Shown one piece after another: positions 53,441-58,527 of a stretch of 64,000 bases of DNA. A program made the translations under genes and the position numbers. Numbering within the stretch: the first letter of the stretch is position 1; each line of letters opens with the position of its first letter. A model generated the notes under the pieces. That model saw only the letters and a program-made list of their open reading frames with translations, was not told the origin of the DNA and did not search any database. The stretch is from Candidatus Gastranaerophilales bacterium (GTDB lineage Bacteria > Cyanobacteriota > Vampirovibrionia > Gastranaerophilales > Gastranaerophilaceae): assembly GCA_947588745.1 (NCBI GenBank), contig CANPYW010000006.1:1-64000 (forward strand), given 5' to 3'.

Positions 53441-55975
53441 ATGACGGACGGAATTCATAATATTCAAGGCGGAAAAGGATTATGGAACCGGCAAAATATG
53501 GAAGCCTCAATTGAAAATGAAAATGACATAACACTTTTCAACTCAAATAATATAGAAAATGTGAATAATGACTTTGAATATTACGAAAATGAAAATGAGC
53601 CTGCGGAGGAGAATAACACACAAACAACAATTGATGAACAGGCAGAAGAATTGTATTCAATGCTTGGTGATATCAAAGAAAAGCAAGGTGTTGTAAGTTC
53701 CGTTTGGAATTCGTTAAAATCATTTGTCGGGGCGGGTACAAGCACTAAAAAATGCGAAAAGGCAATAGAAGATTTTAAATCGGGCAAATTGTCTTTTGAA
53801 GAAGCACAAAGTAAAATTTCGGAATTTGAATCTAAACAGGAAAGTTCCGTAAATATGTTTTCAAATATTGTAAGCGGTATCGCCGTAACCGCAGCAGTCG
53901 GTTCCGCAATAGCGACAGGCGGTCTGAGTTTAGCGGTGGTAGGCGGTTCTGCACTATTGGGTGGTGCAACAAAAGCAGGACTAAAATTTGCGGACAGAGC
54001 AACAAACAGAGTAAAAGGTGATGCTCTGAATAAGAAACAGCTTGCAAAAGACGGACTTTCGGGTGCTGTTGAAGGTGTTGCAACGGCAGTAACAATGGGT
54101 GTGGGAACTGCGGCAAAAACGGCGGGAACAGTTGCGGAAGCAGCAAGTTCAACGGCAAAAGCGACACTGGGTCAAACACTGAAAACAGGAATAAAAGAAG
54201 GAGCAAAAGCCGGCGGAATTGCAGGTGCCGTAACAGGTGCGGGAGAATATACGATTGATGCGGCACTTGAAGAAGATGTTGAATTTGATACGGGTGATAT
54301 GTTTGAAAATACGGCAAAAACCGCATTCGCAGGAGCAATTACGGGTGGAGTTATGGGCGGTATTACAAGCGGAATAGGCTATGCGAAATCAAATTTGACC
54401 GGCGAAAATAATTTACATAACGAAGCAGCAGATATAGAGGCAGAAACAAGACTTAAAAAGCCTGAAAATGGAGATGTAAAAGCCACAGCGGAAGAAATTT
54501 CCGCTAAACTTGACGATACAGCCGCCATGGGGAATAATACAGCAGACGTTTTGGAAGATGTAAAAACTTCTGCAGATGAAATTTCTGCTAAGTTTGACAA
54601 TACAGCCGCCATGGGGAATAATACAGCAGACGTTTTGGAAGATGTAAACGCCACAGCGGAAAAAGTTCAAACAAAAGATAACAATATCAGCGGAAATAAC
54701 GACGAAGCCGTAATAACCCCCAATGTTGAACAGGAGCTTAACGAAAACACTTTGGCTATTTCGGAACAAACCAAAGCACATATACATGAAGCAAAAGAAC
54801 AGGTCACCGATATATTTAAAGATGTAAAACAGGTTAAAGAGGGCGGTAAAATAACAGCAAGAGCAAAAACCGACAAATCAATCATGGCAAAACTCATCAA
54901 AAAGTTTAAAAATCATAAACTTAAATCAACGGATTATTATGATTCCGAAGCTGCAATTGCCGATGCTTACGGTTCTCGTGTTCAGCTCAGGAGTTTAACG
55001 CCCCAAGAATCAAAAAGCATAATTGATGACTGCCTTTACGGATATGATATAAATTATGATGATTTCATCAAATATATGCATGGTGAAACAACATCACTAA
55101 ACGCTTCTCAAATTGAAACTTTGGATGAAATAAGCGATACCGTTATTGATTTATTGAAAGAAAAACAAACACAAGACGCCGTTGACAGTCTGATAAAAGC
55201 AATAACCGACCCCGATAATCCGATATCAATAACGGAACTGAATAACTATGGAGATAATTTATCTTCATATTTTACAAATCGTCAGAACCAACAAATTGCG
55301 GATGCTTATGCAAAAGCAAACCCGGGTAAGAAGCTTGATATAGTAACAAAATTTGATGCCGATACAAAAGAATTTACATTCACACCACAATATGATTCGG
55401 AAACAGGTAATTTATTATGCTGTAACGATACACAAGGAAATATATTCATTCCCGATAAAGACGGAAATCTTGTATCACCTTCGGGAGATTTATACACTCC
55501 GGAGGGAAAACTAATACGAAAGAACGGGAAAAATGCCGTATTCACAAATAAAGGGGCTGAAAAAGATTCCGGTTATTCATCATCCCACCTTAATACCGTT
55601 CATAAATTTAAAGACGGAAGAACCGGATTGGGCGAACTTCAAATCAGAGGTACGGAAGTTAATGCATTTGCGGATGCAGAACATATTCCTTATGATATCA
55701 GGATGGGAAAAATTACCGAAACGGATGCGAAATACGCCGATGTTTGGAAAACAATAATCAGCATGGACGAAAACAGTTATAAACTGTATAATCAATATAT
55801 AAATGATACTTACAAGGCCTTAAGATTAAATGAACTCGGTATTCATACCGAACTTCCGACACTTGATAATATGAAATTTACTGCAGATATTCAATTCGGA
55901 GGTCATGACATAACCAAAGCGGTACAAAAACTCGATATGAACGGTTTAATAGAATTAAGTAAACGTCACGATTAA
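53441..55975 (+). CDS. large glycine-zipper protein with C-terminal RelA/SpoT-like synthetase domain
   Basis: 844 residues, no signal peptide, AAGGA site. Order: acidic N terminus (1-130), glycine-zipper hydrophobic segments (about 140-175, 205-270, 293-315), two near-identical 28-residue units (about 350-405), helical region, then a RelA/SpoT-like core. Synthetase motifs: ITARAKTDKSIMAKL (471-485; compare G-R-x-K-x-x-x-S-I-x-x-K), D508 with SR (compare D-L-x-x-I-R), GYSSSHL (711-717; compare GYxSxH) and GELQIRG with E732 (compare E-x-Q-I-R-T), then ADAEH. Asp and Glu of the pyrophosphate-transfer site are thus kept, while the R-F-K-D-Y segment is not evident. It could make a (p)ppGpp/ppApp-type nucleotide or pyrophosphorylate RNA; toxin, regulator or structural role are all possible. 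The gene at 56034 follows after 58 bases. Confidence 0.65.
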   Translation: MTDGIHNIQGGKGLWNRQNMEASIENENDITLFNSNNIENVNNDFEYYENENEPAEENNTQTTIDEQAEELYSMLGDIKEKQGVVSSVWNSLKSFVGAGTSTKKCEKAIEDFKSGKLSFEEAQSKISEFESKQESSVNMFSNIVSGIAVTAAVGSAIATGGLSLAVVGGSALLGGATKAGLKFADRATNRVKGDALNKKQLAKDGLSGAVEGVATAVTMGVGTAAKTAGTVAEAASSTAKATLGQTLKTGIKEGAKAGGIAGAVTGAGEYTIDAALEEDVEFDTGDMFENTAKTAFAGAITGGVMGGITSGIGYAKSNLTGENNLHNEAADIEAETRLKKPENGDVKATAEEISAKLDDTAAMGNNTADVLEDVKTSADEISAKFDNTAAMGNNTADVLEDVNATAEKVQTKDNNISGNNDEAVITPNVEQELNENTLAISEQTKAHIHEAKEQVTDIFKDVKQVKEGGKITARAKTDKSIMAKLIKKFKNHKLKSTDYYDSEAAIADAYGSRVQLRSLTPQESKSIIDDCLYGYDINYDDFIKYMHGETTSLNASQIETLDEISDTVIDLLKEKQTQDAVDSLIKAITDPDNPISITELNNYGDNLSSYFTNRQNQQIADAYAKANPGKKLDIVTKFDADTKEFTFTPQYDSETGNLLCCNDTQGNIFIPDKDGNLVSPSGDLYTPEGKLIRKNGKNAVFTNKGAEKDSGYSSSHLNTVHKFKDGRTGLGELQIRGTEVNAFADAEHIPYDIRMGKITETDAKYADVWKTIISMDENSYKLYNQYINDTYKALRLNELGIHTELPTLDNMKFTADIQFGGHDITKAVQKLDMNGLIELSKRHD

Positions 55976-56033: not shown

Positions 56034-56486
56034 ATGGTAAGATTAAATAATAACGGAGATAATAATTACAATAATTATGCAAACTCGCTCGGAAAATTGA
56101 ACAAAGGTGATATCGTAATGGAAAACAATGAACAGGTTTTCAAAAAAATCGTAAATACAAGTAATGAAATGCTTGCAAATCTGGCAGAACGCCTGGTTCC
56201 CGAAAACGGTAAATTTAATTCTGTAGCAATCGATTATAAGCTTCCGAAATCAAATAACATGGCAAAAGTTATGATTGAATGCGATTTGGAAGACCCTAAA
56301 ACACAAAGAAGAATTTCAGTAGGAGTTCACCACAAAGACAGGGACAGGCTCATATCCAATTACATCTGCAAAGGTACGAAAAAAGAAGTATTGGATTATC
56401 TGAAAGCGGAAGAAAATAAACAAACCTTTTTCGATACGATAAATGAACTTTCAGCTAAAACGAACGAATATTACGATAATATATAA
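56034..56486 (+). CDS. small partner of the RelA/SpoT-domain protein
   Basis: 150 residues from the ATG at 56034; a shorter start at 56118 has a good AAGGTG site and would give 122 residues, and a GTG at 55998 would give 162. The first 40 residues are Asn-rich and low-complexity; the rest has mixed strands and helices (FNSVAIDYKLPKSNNMAKVMIECDLED; RRISVGVHHKDRDRLISNYICKGTKKEVLDYL). No known domain is seen. Its position after the RelA/SpoT-domain gene, with a shared terminator, suggests a binding partner, such as an antidote or chaperone; that is inference from position only. Confidence 0.6.
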   Translation: MVRLNNNGDNNYNNYANSLGKLNKGDIVMENNEQVFKKIVNTSNEMLANLAERLVPENGKFNSVAIDYKLPKSNNMAKVMIECDLEDPKTQRRISVGVHHKDRDRLISNYICKGTKKEVLDYLKAEENKQTFFDTINELSAKTNEYYDNI

Positions 56487-56610: not shown

Positions 56611-58527
56611 ATGACTTATTGCGATGAACAAAAAACATCACCATTTTTAAATGTTGAGGCTAAAAATATCATTAAGGAAGCTTTAAATGTATTAGGGAAA
56701 AAACACTTTGCATTTATTTCGCATGCCAACAGTTTTCCCGCAGAAAACGGTAAAAATACGGGGTTCGGAACATCAAACAGCAATGCCGCAAAAAATTTAA
56801 TCGATTATCTTTCGGGAATTTTCACCGATATACAGTTAGGGCCGTCGGGTAAAACAAAATCCATTGATGCTTCACCGTACACAGGCACAATTTTTTCAAA
56901 TAATCCTTTATTCATTGACTTGGAGCAATTAACAACGGATGAATGGCACAATATTCTTTCTTATGAAACATATAACAAAATAACTCAAAATAATCCGAAC
57001 AAAGATACAAACAGAACAGCATATTCATATATCTTTAATGCACAGGAAGAAGCACTTAAAGAAGCATTTGAGAATTTTAAGAAAGCGGATTGCCCGCAAT
57101 TAAAATCAAAATTCGAAACATATAAGCAGGAAAATCAATTTTGGCTTGAAAAAGATTCTTTATATGAAGCATTGACCGTTGAACATAAAAACGATTACTG
57201 GCCGATGTGGAAATCGGAAACAGATAAGTCACTGTATAATCCTCAAACGGAAGAACAAAAAGCAGAATATGCAAACAGAATTAACGAATTAAAATCAAAA
57301 TATGCCGATGTAATCGAGTTTTATTCGTTCTGTCAGTTCGTAATATCAGAACAGAACACAAAAACAAGAGAATATGCCCAATCAAAAGGAATGAAAATGA
57401 TTGCGGACAGGCAAGTAGCATTTTCCGATCGTGATAACTGGGCATATCAGTCATATTTCTTAAAAGGATGGTATTTGGGCTGCCCTCCGGATTATTTTTC
57501 AAAAGACGGTCAAATGTGGGGTTTCCCCGTTATGGATCCCGAAAAACTGTTCAATAAAGACGGTTCTTTGGGTGAGGGCGGCTTACTGATGAAAGAACTT
57601 TATAAAAAAATGTTCAAAGAAAATCCGGGCGGTGTGCGAATTGACCACATGGTAGGTTTAATTGACCCCTGGGTATATGTTGCGGGTAAAAAACCGAAAA
57701 TAGAAGAAGGTGCGGGAAGATTATATTCTTCACCCGAACATCCTGTCTTATCAAAATATGCCATAGCAACTACGGATGACTTAAATGACGAAGTTGAGGC
57801 CGATAAAGAAGAACGTATACTAAAACTTACAAAAGAACAGATAAAAAGATACGGAGCCTTGGTTGAAAAAATTGTTATAGCTGCAGCTCAAGAGGTCGGG
57901 CTTGATAAAGACTCAATTGTATGCGAGGACTTAGGCACTTTAACTTATCCCGTTGTAAGCGTTATGAAAGAATACGATTTACAGGGCATGAAGTTAATTC
58001 AGTTTGTAGTACCCGAAAAACCCGAACATCCCTACAGATGTAAAAATATTACACCGAGAAGCTGGGCAATGGTTGGTACTCATGACAACGAGCCTATTGC
58101 AATGTGGGCCGATTCAACCGTATTTAGTGAAGCGGGATATTTAAACGGTAAAAATCTCGCCGAAGATTTATACCCCGATGCAACGGATGAAGAAAGAGAA
58201 GAAATAGCCGTCAGAATATCAAAAGATGCAAAATTCTTAACTCAAAATAAATTTGTAGAATTGTTTGCGTGCAAGGCGGAAAATATTCAAATATTCTTTA
58301 CAGATTTATTCGGATTATATGAAGTATATAACCGCCCCGGAACATCAGGCGATTCAAATTGGTCATTGAGAATACCCGACAATTATGAAGAAGTATATTG
58401 CAATAACCTGAAAGAAGGTAAAGCTTTAAACTTACCGTACATTTTAAAACTGGCTATTGAGGCAAGAGGTCATGAGTTTGCTGCCGACCACAGGGAAACA
58501 ATAATGAAATTGGAAAGCATAATGTAA
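56611..58527 (+). CDS. malQ: 4-alpha-glucanotransferase (GH77)
   Basis: 638 residues. The GH77 pattern is clear: IQLGPSGKTKS and DASPYTGTIFSNNPLFID (about 74-103), the nucleophile D345 in GGVRIDHMVGLIDPW, acid/base E439 in VCEDLGTLT, and the transition-state Asp in THDNEPIAMW (H491, D492). It moves maltodextrin segments between glucans and works with phosphorylase and phosphoglucomutase on glycogen or starch. It is longer than many MalQ proteins (about 500) because of a helical insert near residues 110-240. AAGGAT precedes the ATG. Confidence 0.95.
   Translation: MTYCDEQKTSPFLNVEAKNIIKEALNVLGKKHFAFISHANSFPAENGKNTGFGTSNSNAAKNLIDYLSGIFTDIQLGPSGKTKSIDASPYTGTIFSNNPLFIDLEQLTTDEWHNILSYETYNKITQNNPNKDTNRTAYSYIFNAQEEALKEAFENFKKADCPQLKSKFETYKQENQFWLEKDSLYEALTVEHKNDYWPMWKSETDKSLYNPQTEEQKAEYANRINELKSKYADVIEFYSFCQFVISEQNTKTREYAQSKGMKMIADRQVAFSDRDNWAYQSYFLKGWYLGCPPDYFSKDGQMWGFPVMDPEKLFNKDGSLGEGGLLMKELYKKMFKENPGGVRIDHMVGLIDPWVYVAGKKPKIEEGAGRLYSSPEHPVLSKYAIATTDDLNDEVEADKEERILKLTKEQIKRYGALVEKIVIAAAQEVGLDKDSIVCEDLGTLTYPVVSVMKEYDLQGMKLIQFVVPEKPEHPYRCKNITPRSWAMVGTHDNEPIAMWADSTVFSEAGYLNGKNLAEDLYPDATDEEREEIAVRISKDAKFLTQNKFVELFACKAENIQIFFTDLFGLYEVYNRPGTSGDSNWSLRIPDNYEEVYCNNLKEGKALNLPYILKLAIEARGHEFAADHRETIMKLESIM

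Follow-up and report, generated by a model that had tools for sequence, protein, structure and literature searches.

A RelA/SpoT-like synthetase domain and a linked partner gene in a candidate polymorphic effector family of the Gastranaerophilales

Polymorphic toxin systems join one N-terminal module to several catalytic C-termini, and candidate antidote genes adjoin them. The Pfam family Tc-R-P is named for such systems. A 2025 survey describes approximately 600 exported alarmone synthetases (EAS) with several secretion pathways; in the sections of the survey used here, these are linked to Sec, type III (XopAD), type IV, type VI and type VII secretion and to MuF and contractile-injection proteins (PMC12691689). 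The EAS named in these sections are Apk1/Tas1 (type VI), Apk2 (MuF), SaEAS, VpEAS and AaEAS, and the survey set was gathered starting from Apk1. The words "Cyanobacteri" and "Melainabacteria" are absent from its main text (PMC12691689). As described in the relevant part of PMC11782079, Tox-SAS neutralisers are either Tis1-like or of a pseudo-Zn-finger type.

The locus described here is from a Candidatus Gastranaerophilales bacterium. The whole stretch of DNA analysed, 64,000 nucleotides in length, is termed the window, and its 844 amino acid open reading frame is termed the window protein (Table 1). The first-pass annotation, made from the letters of the sequence, had assigned the same open reading frame and read it as a fusion of glycine-zipper segments with a RelA/SpoT-like synthetase domain, perhaps a delivered or membrane-gated effector. 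The observation was right and the interpretation half right: the putative delivery has indirect support from a shared module, a partner gene and export genes. Its remark that toxic alarmone synthetases are short or fused to secretion parts was correct, but the exported ones of the survey cited above had already been reported (PMC12691689, in the sections used). Features that go beyond that annotation are the partner gene (termed S), the architecture of swappable modules, and flagellar-type export genes in a genome with no flagellin, VirB4 or VipB match. The reading preferred here, with a probability of roughly 0.53, is that the window protein is a secreted or injected effector of the toxSAS type and that S is its neutralising partner.

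Table 1. Positions in the window of the effector-like gene, its segments and motifs, and the partner gene
Feature	Position	Strand	Basis or remark
Modular effector-like gene, 844 aa	53441..55975	+	Open reading frame and translation; AAGGA just 5' of ATG
Polar Asn/Glu-rich N-terminal segment, residues 1-134	53441..53842	+	Possible export signal region (putative function)
Glycine-zipper hydrophobic module, residues ~135-314	53843..54382	+	Composition; homologous modules elsewhere
RelA/SpoT-like synthetase domain, residues 460-844	54818..55972	+	Pfam, PDB profile, alignment, AlphaFold2/Foldseek
R474-x-K476-x3-S480-x3-K484, pyrophosphate-donor (ATP) motif	54860..54892	+	63/63 rows; role by analogy with SAS enzymes
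D508-x-x-G511-x-R513, metal-binding Asp motif	54962..54979	+	63/63 rows; role by analogy
Region from Asp motif to G-loop with family-specific insertions (N602, Y603, Y610)	54980..55561	+	Alignments
G-loop, K708-x-S710-G711-Y712-...-H716-x-N718	55562..55594	+	Alignment of 63 rows
E732-L-Q734-I-R736, catalytic Glu motif	55634..55648	+	63/63 rows; role by analogy
Partner gene S, 150 aa from ATG 56034	56034..56486	+	AGGAG 13 nt upstream; probable antidote

The last ~385 residues of the window protein are homologous to RelA/SpoT synthetases, and this homology is well supported. The whole 844 aa sequence gives no RelA_SpoT match in Pfam (E ≤ 1), PHROGs or NCBIfam, and a PDB search with the single domain sequence gives no match. 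A Pfam scan of 31 family members shows RelA_SpoT (PF04607) in 20 of them, the window included, at E ≤ 1 (best E = 3.5e-8). The domain of the window protein scores 21.7 bits (E = 2.5e-4) against a curated cut-off of 27, which two relatives pass, L157 (30.3 bits) and L177 (29.9 bits). These two are among ten additional relatives scanned, nine of which have RelA_SpoT at E ≤ 0.1. When the PDB is searched with a profile of the 31-member alignment, six sequences of alarmone synthetases match with whole-sequence E-values between 2.7e-4 and 0.01 (the individual printed stretches are weak), and in the profile alignment the motifs of the domain are in register with solved SAS sequences.

The fold points the same way. 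The first-pass annotation had proposed a structural comparison as a check, and with an AlphaFold2 model of the domain (63 rows; pLDDT 89.9, pTM 0.87) Foldseek ranks 1–18 in the PDB are small alarmone synthetases, other GTP pyrophosphokinases and CapRel (best probability 1.00, best E = 2.2e-3). TM values are at most 0.49 by target length and 0.26 by query length; such modest values are expected because of the large insertions in the domain. Alignment by hhalign with 28 long-RSH segments yields two colinear pieces, with E = 2.7e-4 (probability 41%) and E = 0.014 (probability 3%). These E-values refer to a single comparison and are weak; the homology claim rests instead on Pfam, the PDB profile and the fold.

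The catalytic residues are conserved. An alignment of 63 rows (A3) comprises the window and 62 of 63 related loci; L093 is omitted, though its domain is visible. Twelve positions from the donor motif to the G-loop are invariant in 63/63 rows (R474, K476, S480, K484, D508, G511, R513, N602, Y610, G711, Y712 and N718), as are E732, Q734, R736, E747 and H748; K708 (61/63) and Y603 (62/63) are nearly so. Thus D508 and E732, whose loss in close homologs the annotation had named as evidence against its reading, are retained throughout. The donor Arg/Lys, metal Asp, G-loop Tyr and the Glu of ExQ[IV]R are all present and in the order first described, in the window protein as R474-A-K476...S480-I-M-A-K484, D508-A-Y-G511-S-R513, G711-Y-S-S-S-H716 and E732-L-Q-I-R736. 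The GYSSSH form of the G-loop does occur in the window protein, but it is not typical of the family: the His of GYxSxH (H716) is Gln in 62 of 63 rows and His in the window protein only. In the part of the alarmone synthetase literature used here, a conserved Tyr near the G-loop touches the acceptor base (PMC11782079). Because of this neighbouring Tyr and the His to Gln change, the acceptor choice of the family may, by analogy, differ from that of known alarmone synthetases.

The N-terminal half is of a different composition. Residues 130–330 contain nine GxxxG motifs and 35% Gly+Ala, versus none and 14% in residues 331–844, which bears out the glycine-zipper description; hydrophobic stretches are at positions 135–182, 205–231 and 294–314. 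No Pfam-recognised export domain is found in the window protein at E ≤ 1, and this includes WXG/LXG, XopAD, MuF, DUF4157 and Rhs/PAAR domains insofar as Pfam models them. An N-terminal F-x-G tag was considered as a proven export signal and was dropped: F.G occurs 46 times in residues 11–20 versus 5–42 times in the other 19 bins, but many of the 858 open reading frames counted are S proteins themselves.

The glycine-zipper module is found with other C-termini as well as alone. A homologous module stands alone as a 330 aa protein (G000:C7). Fifteen regions were fetched (L215–L229), and in 14 of these a module-matching protein is seen by blastp. Ten proteins were scanned with Pfam, eight from these regions and two from L149. 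After the module, two proteins have an ADPrib_exo_Tox C-terminus (L218 and L220; E = 8.3e-13 and 7.3e-17), one has an ABC1-like C-terminus (L219, E = 2.5e-14), and one is weakly phosphatase-like (L227, DSPc, E = 4e-4, below cut-off). The remaining six show nothing convincing in Pfam. At L218, an ADP-ribosylglycohydrolase gene (E = 1.2e-68) is convergent to the ADP-ribosyltransferase gene; this kind of enzyme reverses ADP-ribosylation. Genes beside L215 and L226 were considered as NADAR proteins and rejected; their Pfam match is Phage_30_3.

The RelA domain in its turn is preceded by N-termini of 96 to 1518 aa that form nine classes. Complete open reading frames of the 63-locus set are 434 to 1865 aa in length, and the domain is found in complete open reading frames of up to 3330 aa. 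In some giant proteins (L147, L155) the domain is internal and S lies behind the gene. As read from these sequences, a single N-terminal module is thus joined to a number of unrelated enzyme domains at the C-terminus, which is the architecture of polymorphic toxins.

The partner gene S begins 58 nt past the stop codon of the 844 aa open reading frame; its mechanical open reading frame starts farther upstream, at GTG 55998 (162 aa). S is present once in the window's genome. An S homolog lies downstream of the RelA domain on the same strand, at a distance of −14 to 79 nt, in 63/63 loci, a count made with an S model derived from an overlapping set of loci. Two of these have a short S, L097 (contig end) and L118 (104 aa). 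Of 29 loci in the overlapping set whose next gene can be read, 28 have S; the exception, L060, has a gene on the opposite strand, and L059 runs off its contig with no S visible.

The linkage holds across the order. RelA domain matches are present in 125 of 192 genomes and S in 105. For 105 of 109 S matches, the same contig carries a RelA match upstream in the same orientation; this lies within 700 nt in 86 cases and farther away (0.9–5.3 kb) in 19. Two of the four other S matches are at contig starts. Four of the 19 distant cases were read: in L147, L155 and L181, S follows the end of the RelA-bearing gene, and in L172 a 102 aa open reading frame separates the two. Conversely, 26 of 131 RelA places have no S match. 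Fourteen of these were inspected, and eleven (L173–L180, L182–L184) are weaker RelA matches, five of them followed by another small gene. Ten of the eleven have 317–376 aa, and the other is truncated where its contig ends. The three remaining places are L059 and L060, described above, and L153, which has a full-length RelA domain (E = 2.3e-50) without S.

The structure model of S (pLDDT 95) has an alpha-beta4-alpha2 order. Foldseek ranks Whirly and PUR-alpha proteins nearest to it, with E-values no better than 0.016, which is no clear match. There is no Pfam match for S at E ≤ 0.01 and no relevant PDB match with an S profile. No Tis1-like or pseudo-Zn-finger protein is among its 50 Foldseek matches listed, a comparison that could miss a weak relation. 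S homologs are also found behind three proteins with no RelA match (L149, L150, L170), whose C-termini display a kinase-like set of motifs when read by eye; Pfam gives nothing convincing for these three, and a PDB sequence search with the C-terminus of L149 gives no match. The proposal that S is an antitoxin of RelA domains only was rejected on account of these loci.

The small size of S and its place directly behind the effector gene would also suit a dedicated secretion chaperone of the same effector, in place of an antidote. Export genes are present in the genome, S homologs are found with C-termini of at least two kinds, and S also follows the giant genes with an internal RelA domain. Against a chaperone, the identity of S between loci rises with that of the domain across the N-terminal classes (Spearman rho = 0.79); the comparison covers 1540 pairs among 56 loci whose N-terminus is complete and which form nine such classes. 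When pairs of matched domain identity are compared, those of the same N-terminal class have a slightly more similar S in six of seven comparable bins, a point for a chaperone that makes some tie of S to the N-terminus conceivable. The excess is 0.01 to 0.04, except in the highest bin (9 and 6 pairs), where it reaches 0.18.

One example shows the pattern. L123/L124 and L125–L127 have domains that are 83%–89% identical and S sequences that are 71%–75% identical. The 97 residues preceding the domain are 81%–84% identical between L124 and L125–L127; farther upstream, identity is 20%–21% over 250–350 residues. Domain and S travel together partly because they are physically linked, and the cassette pattern is thus no proof of binding. 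Other observations also weigh against a chaperone. No S match is found around the glycine-zipper proteins with other C-termini (open reading frames of at least 75 aa, 15 loci, L215–L229), and no type III chaperone is among the 50 Foldseek matches listed for S. Class I type III chaperones are acidic, unlike S (median pI 6.9; 6.1 for S of the window). The covariation is somewhat easier to reconcile with S as an antidote to the domain than with S as a chaperone of the N-terminus, and the chaperone reading is considered rather unlikely, though it is the most serious alternative.

Less probable still is a cytoplasmic toxin-antitoxin or anti-phage module of the toxSAS type, in which the long N-terminus would be a sensor or membrane anchor and nothing would be exported. 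Published Tox-SAS pairs include cytoplasmic toxin-antitoxin and anti-phage systems, in the part of the source used (PMC11782079), and RelA-like proteins of 317–337 aa with a different small neighbour do exist (L173, L174, L182–L184). Against this, PADLOC gives no match for the window protein, S, L157 or L177, and no relative is found in IMG/VR or, by tblastn, in phages and plasmids. In addition, the N-terminal module is common to ADP-ribosyltransferase and other enzyme C-termini, and the RelA domain is also carried by the giant proteins. (PADLOC run on relatives gave one weak LeoBC match, at L218 only.) A membrane-tethered housekeeping (p)ppGpp synthetase with S as its regulator would explain the intact catalytic motifs but is very improbable, in view of the separate long RSH encoded in the window's genome, the patchy presence in the order, the range of lengths and N-terminal classes and the replaced G-loop His.

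The family appears confined to one lineage. A single-sequence query yielded no relatives; an alignment-based search yielded the 63 loci. Their records are named Candidatus Gastranaerophilales, Galligastranaerophilus, Avigastranaerophilus, Adamsella avium, Cyanobacteria MAG or unclassified bacteria. Adamsella avium belongs to the Cyanobacteriota/Melainabacteria group, and some of the records are named for gut or rumen samples. Among the literature matches listed, titles and abstract openings mention no such system for Gastranaerophilales or Melainabacteria.

A possible exit is offered by export genes of the flagellar type. The FHIPEP gate protein is present in all 28 genomes examined. Next to the single full-length FHIPEP of the window's genome are genes for an ATPase that bears the T3SS ATPase C-domain, for YscJ/FliF (MS-ring) and for FliE, together with rod-type genes; a lytic transglycosylase is with this gate cluster and FliR is elsewhere. 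The export genes identified are flagellar in type, the search having covered flagellar-type rather than injectisome-specific parts. Flagellin is matched in 2 of 17 genus members and in 11 of 11 genomes of other families; the window's genome, like 15 of the 17 genus members, has no match. VirB4 is found in 1 of 28 genomes and VipB in none, and neither is matched in the window's genome; type IV and type VI delivery were rejected on this basis. The sections of the literature used describe a flagellar gene subset insufficient for a flagellum in six of nine Gastranaerophilales genomes then known (PMC4040986), and a termite-gut member interpreted as motile (PMC5877343).

An outgroup genome (G045) has a cluster with matching genes (gate 74% and ATPase 80% identical) besides another gate (37%), which by its higher score is taken as the flagellar one. 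Because G045 holds the matching cluster in addition to this presumed flagellar gate, the comparison suggests that the retained export cluster is a second system and not a decayed copy of the flagellar one. The gate is also present in genomes with no match to the window protein, e.g. G015, G035–G037 and G041–G044, so its presence does not link gate and effector, and no gene-level linkage between effectors and export apparatus was found. Delivered use of the effector is likely; export through the flagellar-type type III apparatus is a tentative proposal and the weakest step of the reading.

The preferred reading, of a delivered effector with a neutralising partner, can be set out as follows. The producer would be a Gastranaerophilales-type gut bacterium, probably non-motile, in which S, a small alpha/beta protein, would bind the C-terminal domain and keep it inactive. 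The polar segment and the glycine-zipper module would serve in export and in passage through or into a membrane, and the likeliest exit would be the retained flagellar-type type III export apparatus. In the target cell, the C-terminal domain would transfer pyrophosphate from ATP to the 3'-hydroxyl of an adenine or guanine nucleotide, or to tRNA, and growth or translation arrest would result.

A wider proposal may be entertained tentatively and with some doubt: that filament-less Gastranaerophilales deliver lineage-wide polymorphic effectors with glycine-zipper modules by a second, flagellum-related type III apparatus, and that the RelA/SpoT-type warhead has an extended, family-specific acceptor loop (His to Gln) and a new antidote family that is Whirly/PUR-like in shape. 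If true, non-photosynthetic Cyanobacteriota would possess a contact-toxin system, and an apparatus so far interpreted as a flagellum with parts missing would have a role in secretion. The class of toxic and exported alarmone synthetases is recent and still expanding; to it belongs this family, matched in 125 of 192 sampled genomes of the order, with its own partner gene and a delivery-type module.

Several known systems share features with this locus. EAS proteins also have a domain of the SYNTH fold, often behind an export-linked N-terminus, and in some clusters an immunity gene follows, according to the sections of the survey used (PMC12691689). The window protein, however, is without their export domains by Pfam and has insertions before the G-loop, and S belongs to a partner family with no Pfam name. 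The toxSAS pairs (FaRel/AT2faRel, FaRel2/ATfaRel2, CapRel) likewise pair a RelA-type domain with a small neighbouring gene, which in CapRel is fused to it, as described in the part of PMC11782079 used; S differs in showing no Tis1-like or pseudo-Zn-finger match (Pfam, 50 Foldseek matches listed), and the proteins here are long and modular. Candidate type III effectors of the XopAD type also carry a RelA-like domain, but the relevant part of the survey describes SKWP repeats in these (PMC12691689), whereas the present locus has a glycine-zipper module, and the export genes identified in its genome are flagellar-type, not injectisome-type.

The family resembles polymorphic toxins in that one N-terminal module occurs with several C-termini and candidate antidote genes are neighbours; it differs in that the glycine-zipper module has no Pfam name and relatives are found in this lineage only. 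The idea of a delivered RelA-type toxin is already known. The novelty lies in the lineage that carries it, in the trafficking-type module, in the family of partner genes and in the insertion at the G-loop.

Behind the cassette (the RelA domain gene and S, its probable antidote) is a 4-alpha-glucanotransferase gene, and a similar open reading frame of 638–641 aa is found at the same position in six relatives. This site may be an exchange hotspot.

S homologs are also located downstream of three proteins that end in a set of kinase-like motifs (GSGxxGxGYK, VLKxFHK, IIDYG); these proteins gave no convincing match in Pfam or PDB. RelA-like proteins of 317–337 aa (L173, L174, L182, L183, L184) are followed by a different small gene (122–138 aa), the C-terminal half of which is S-like as judged by eye. 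Giant proteins of 2517 to >3900 aa (L141, L143, L156) carry the RelA domain internally or terminally, and that of L156 has a GNAT acetyltransferase domain in addition. Two convergent genes of L218, encoding an ADP-ribosylglycohydrolase and a glycine-zipper ADP-ribosyltransferase, are likely a toxin-antidote pair.

Features of the window and of compared loci
Feature	Location
4-alpha-glucanotransferase	window 56611-58527
Kinase-like-motif proteins	L149:8153-10072, L150:2-2092, L170:6050-9001
Giant RelA-domain protein	L141:117-10109
ADP-ribosylglycohydrolase	L218:4436-5707
ADP-ribosyltransferase	L218:1749-4427
F-x-G-tagged proteins other than S (examples)	L086:3922-4629, L107:1698-2555, L063:10097-12043
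Export genes (FliI-, FlhA-, FliF-, FliE- and rod-type, a lytic transglycosylase and, at another site, FliR)	L164, L163 (G000:C2), L063 (G000:C7)
Partial FHIPEP protein	L165:8905-10356 (G000:C3)

An F-x-G-type tag following a polar stretch at the N-terminus is common to S and several unrelated proteins of the lineage, and is possibly a sorting signal.

The genome of the window (G000) has flagellar-type export genes and shows no flagellin match. The outgroup genome G045 displays a second cluster matching these genes (L166), in addition to its presumed flagellar gate. A separate 483-aa protein of G000 matches the FHIPEP gate in its cytoplasmic part only (positions 313–653); a similar partial match is present in 28/28 genomes. 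In known systems, this cytoplasmic part is the docking place for chaperone-substrate pairs.
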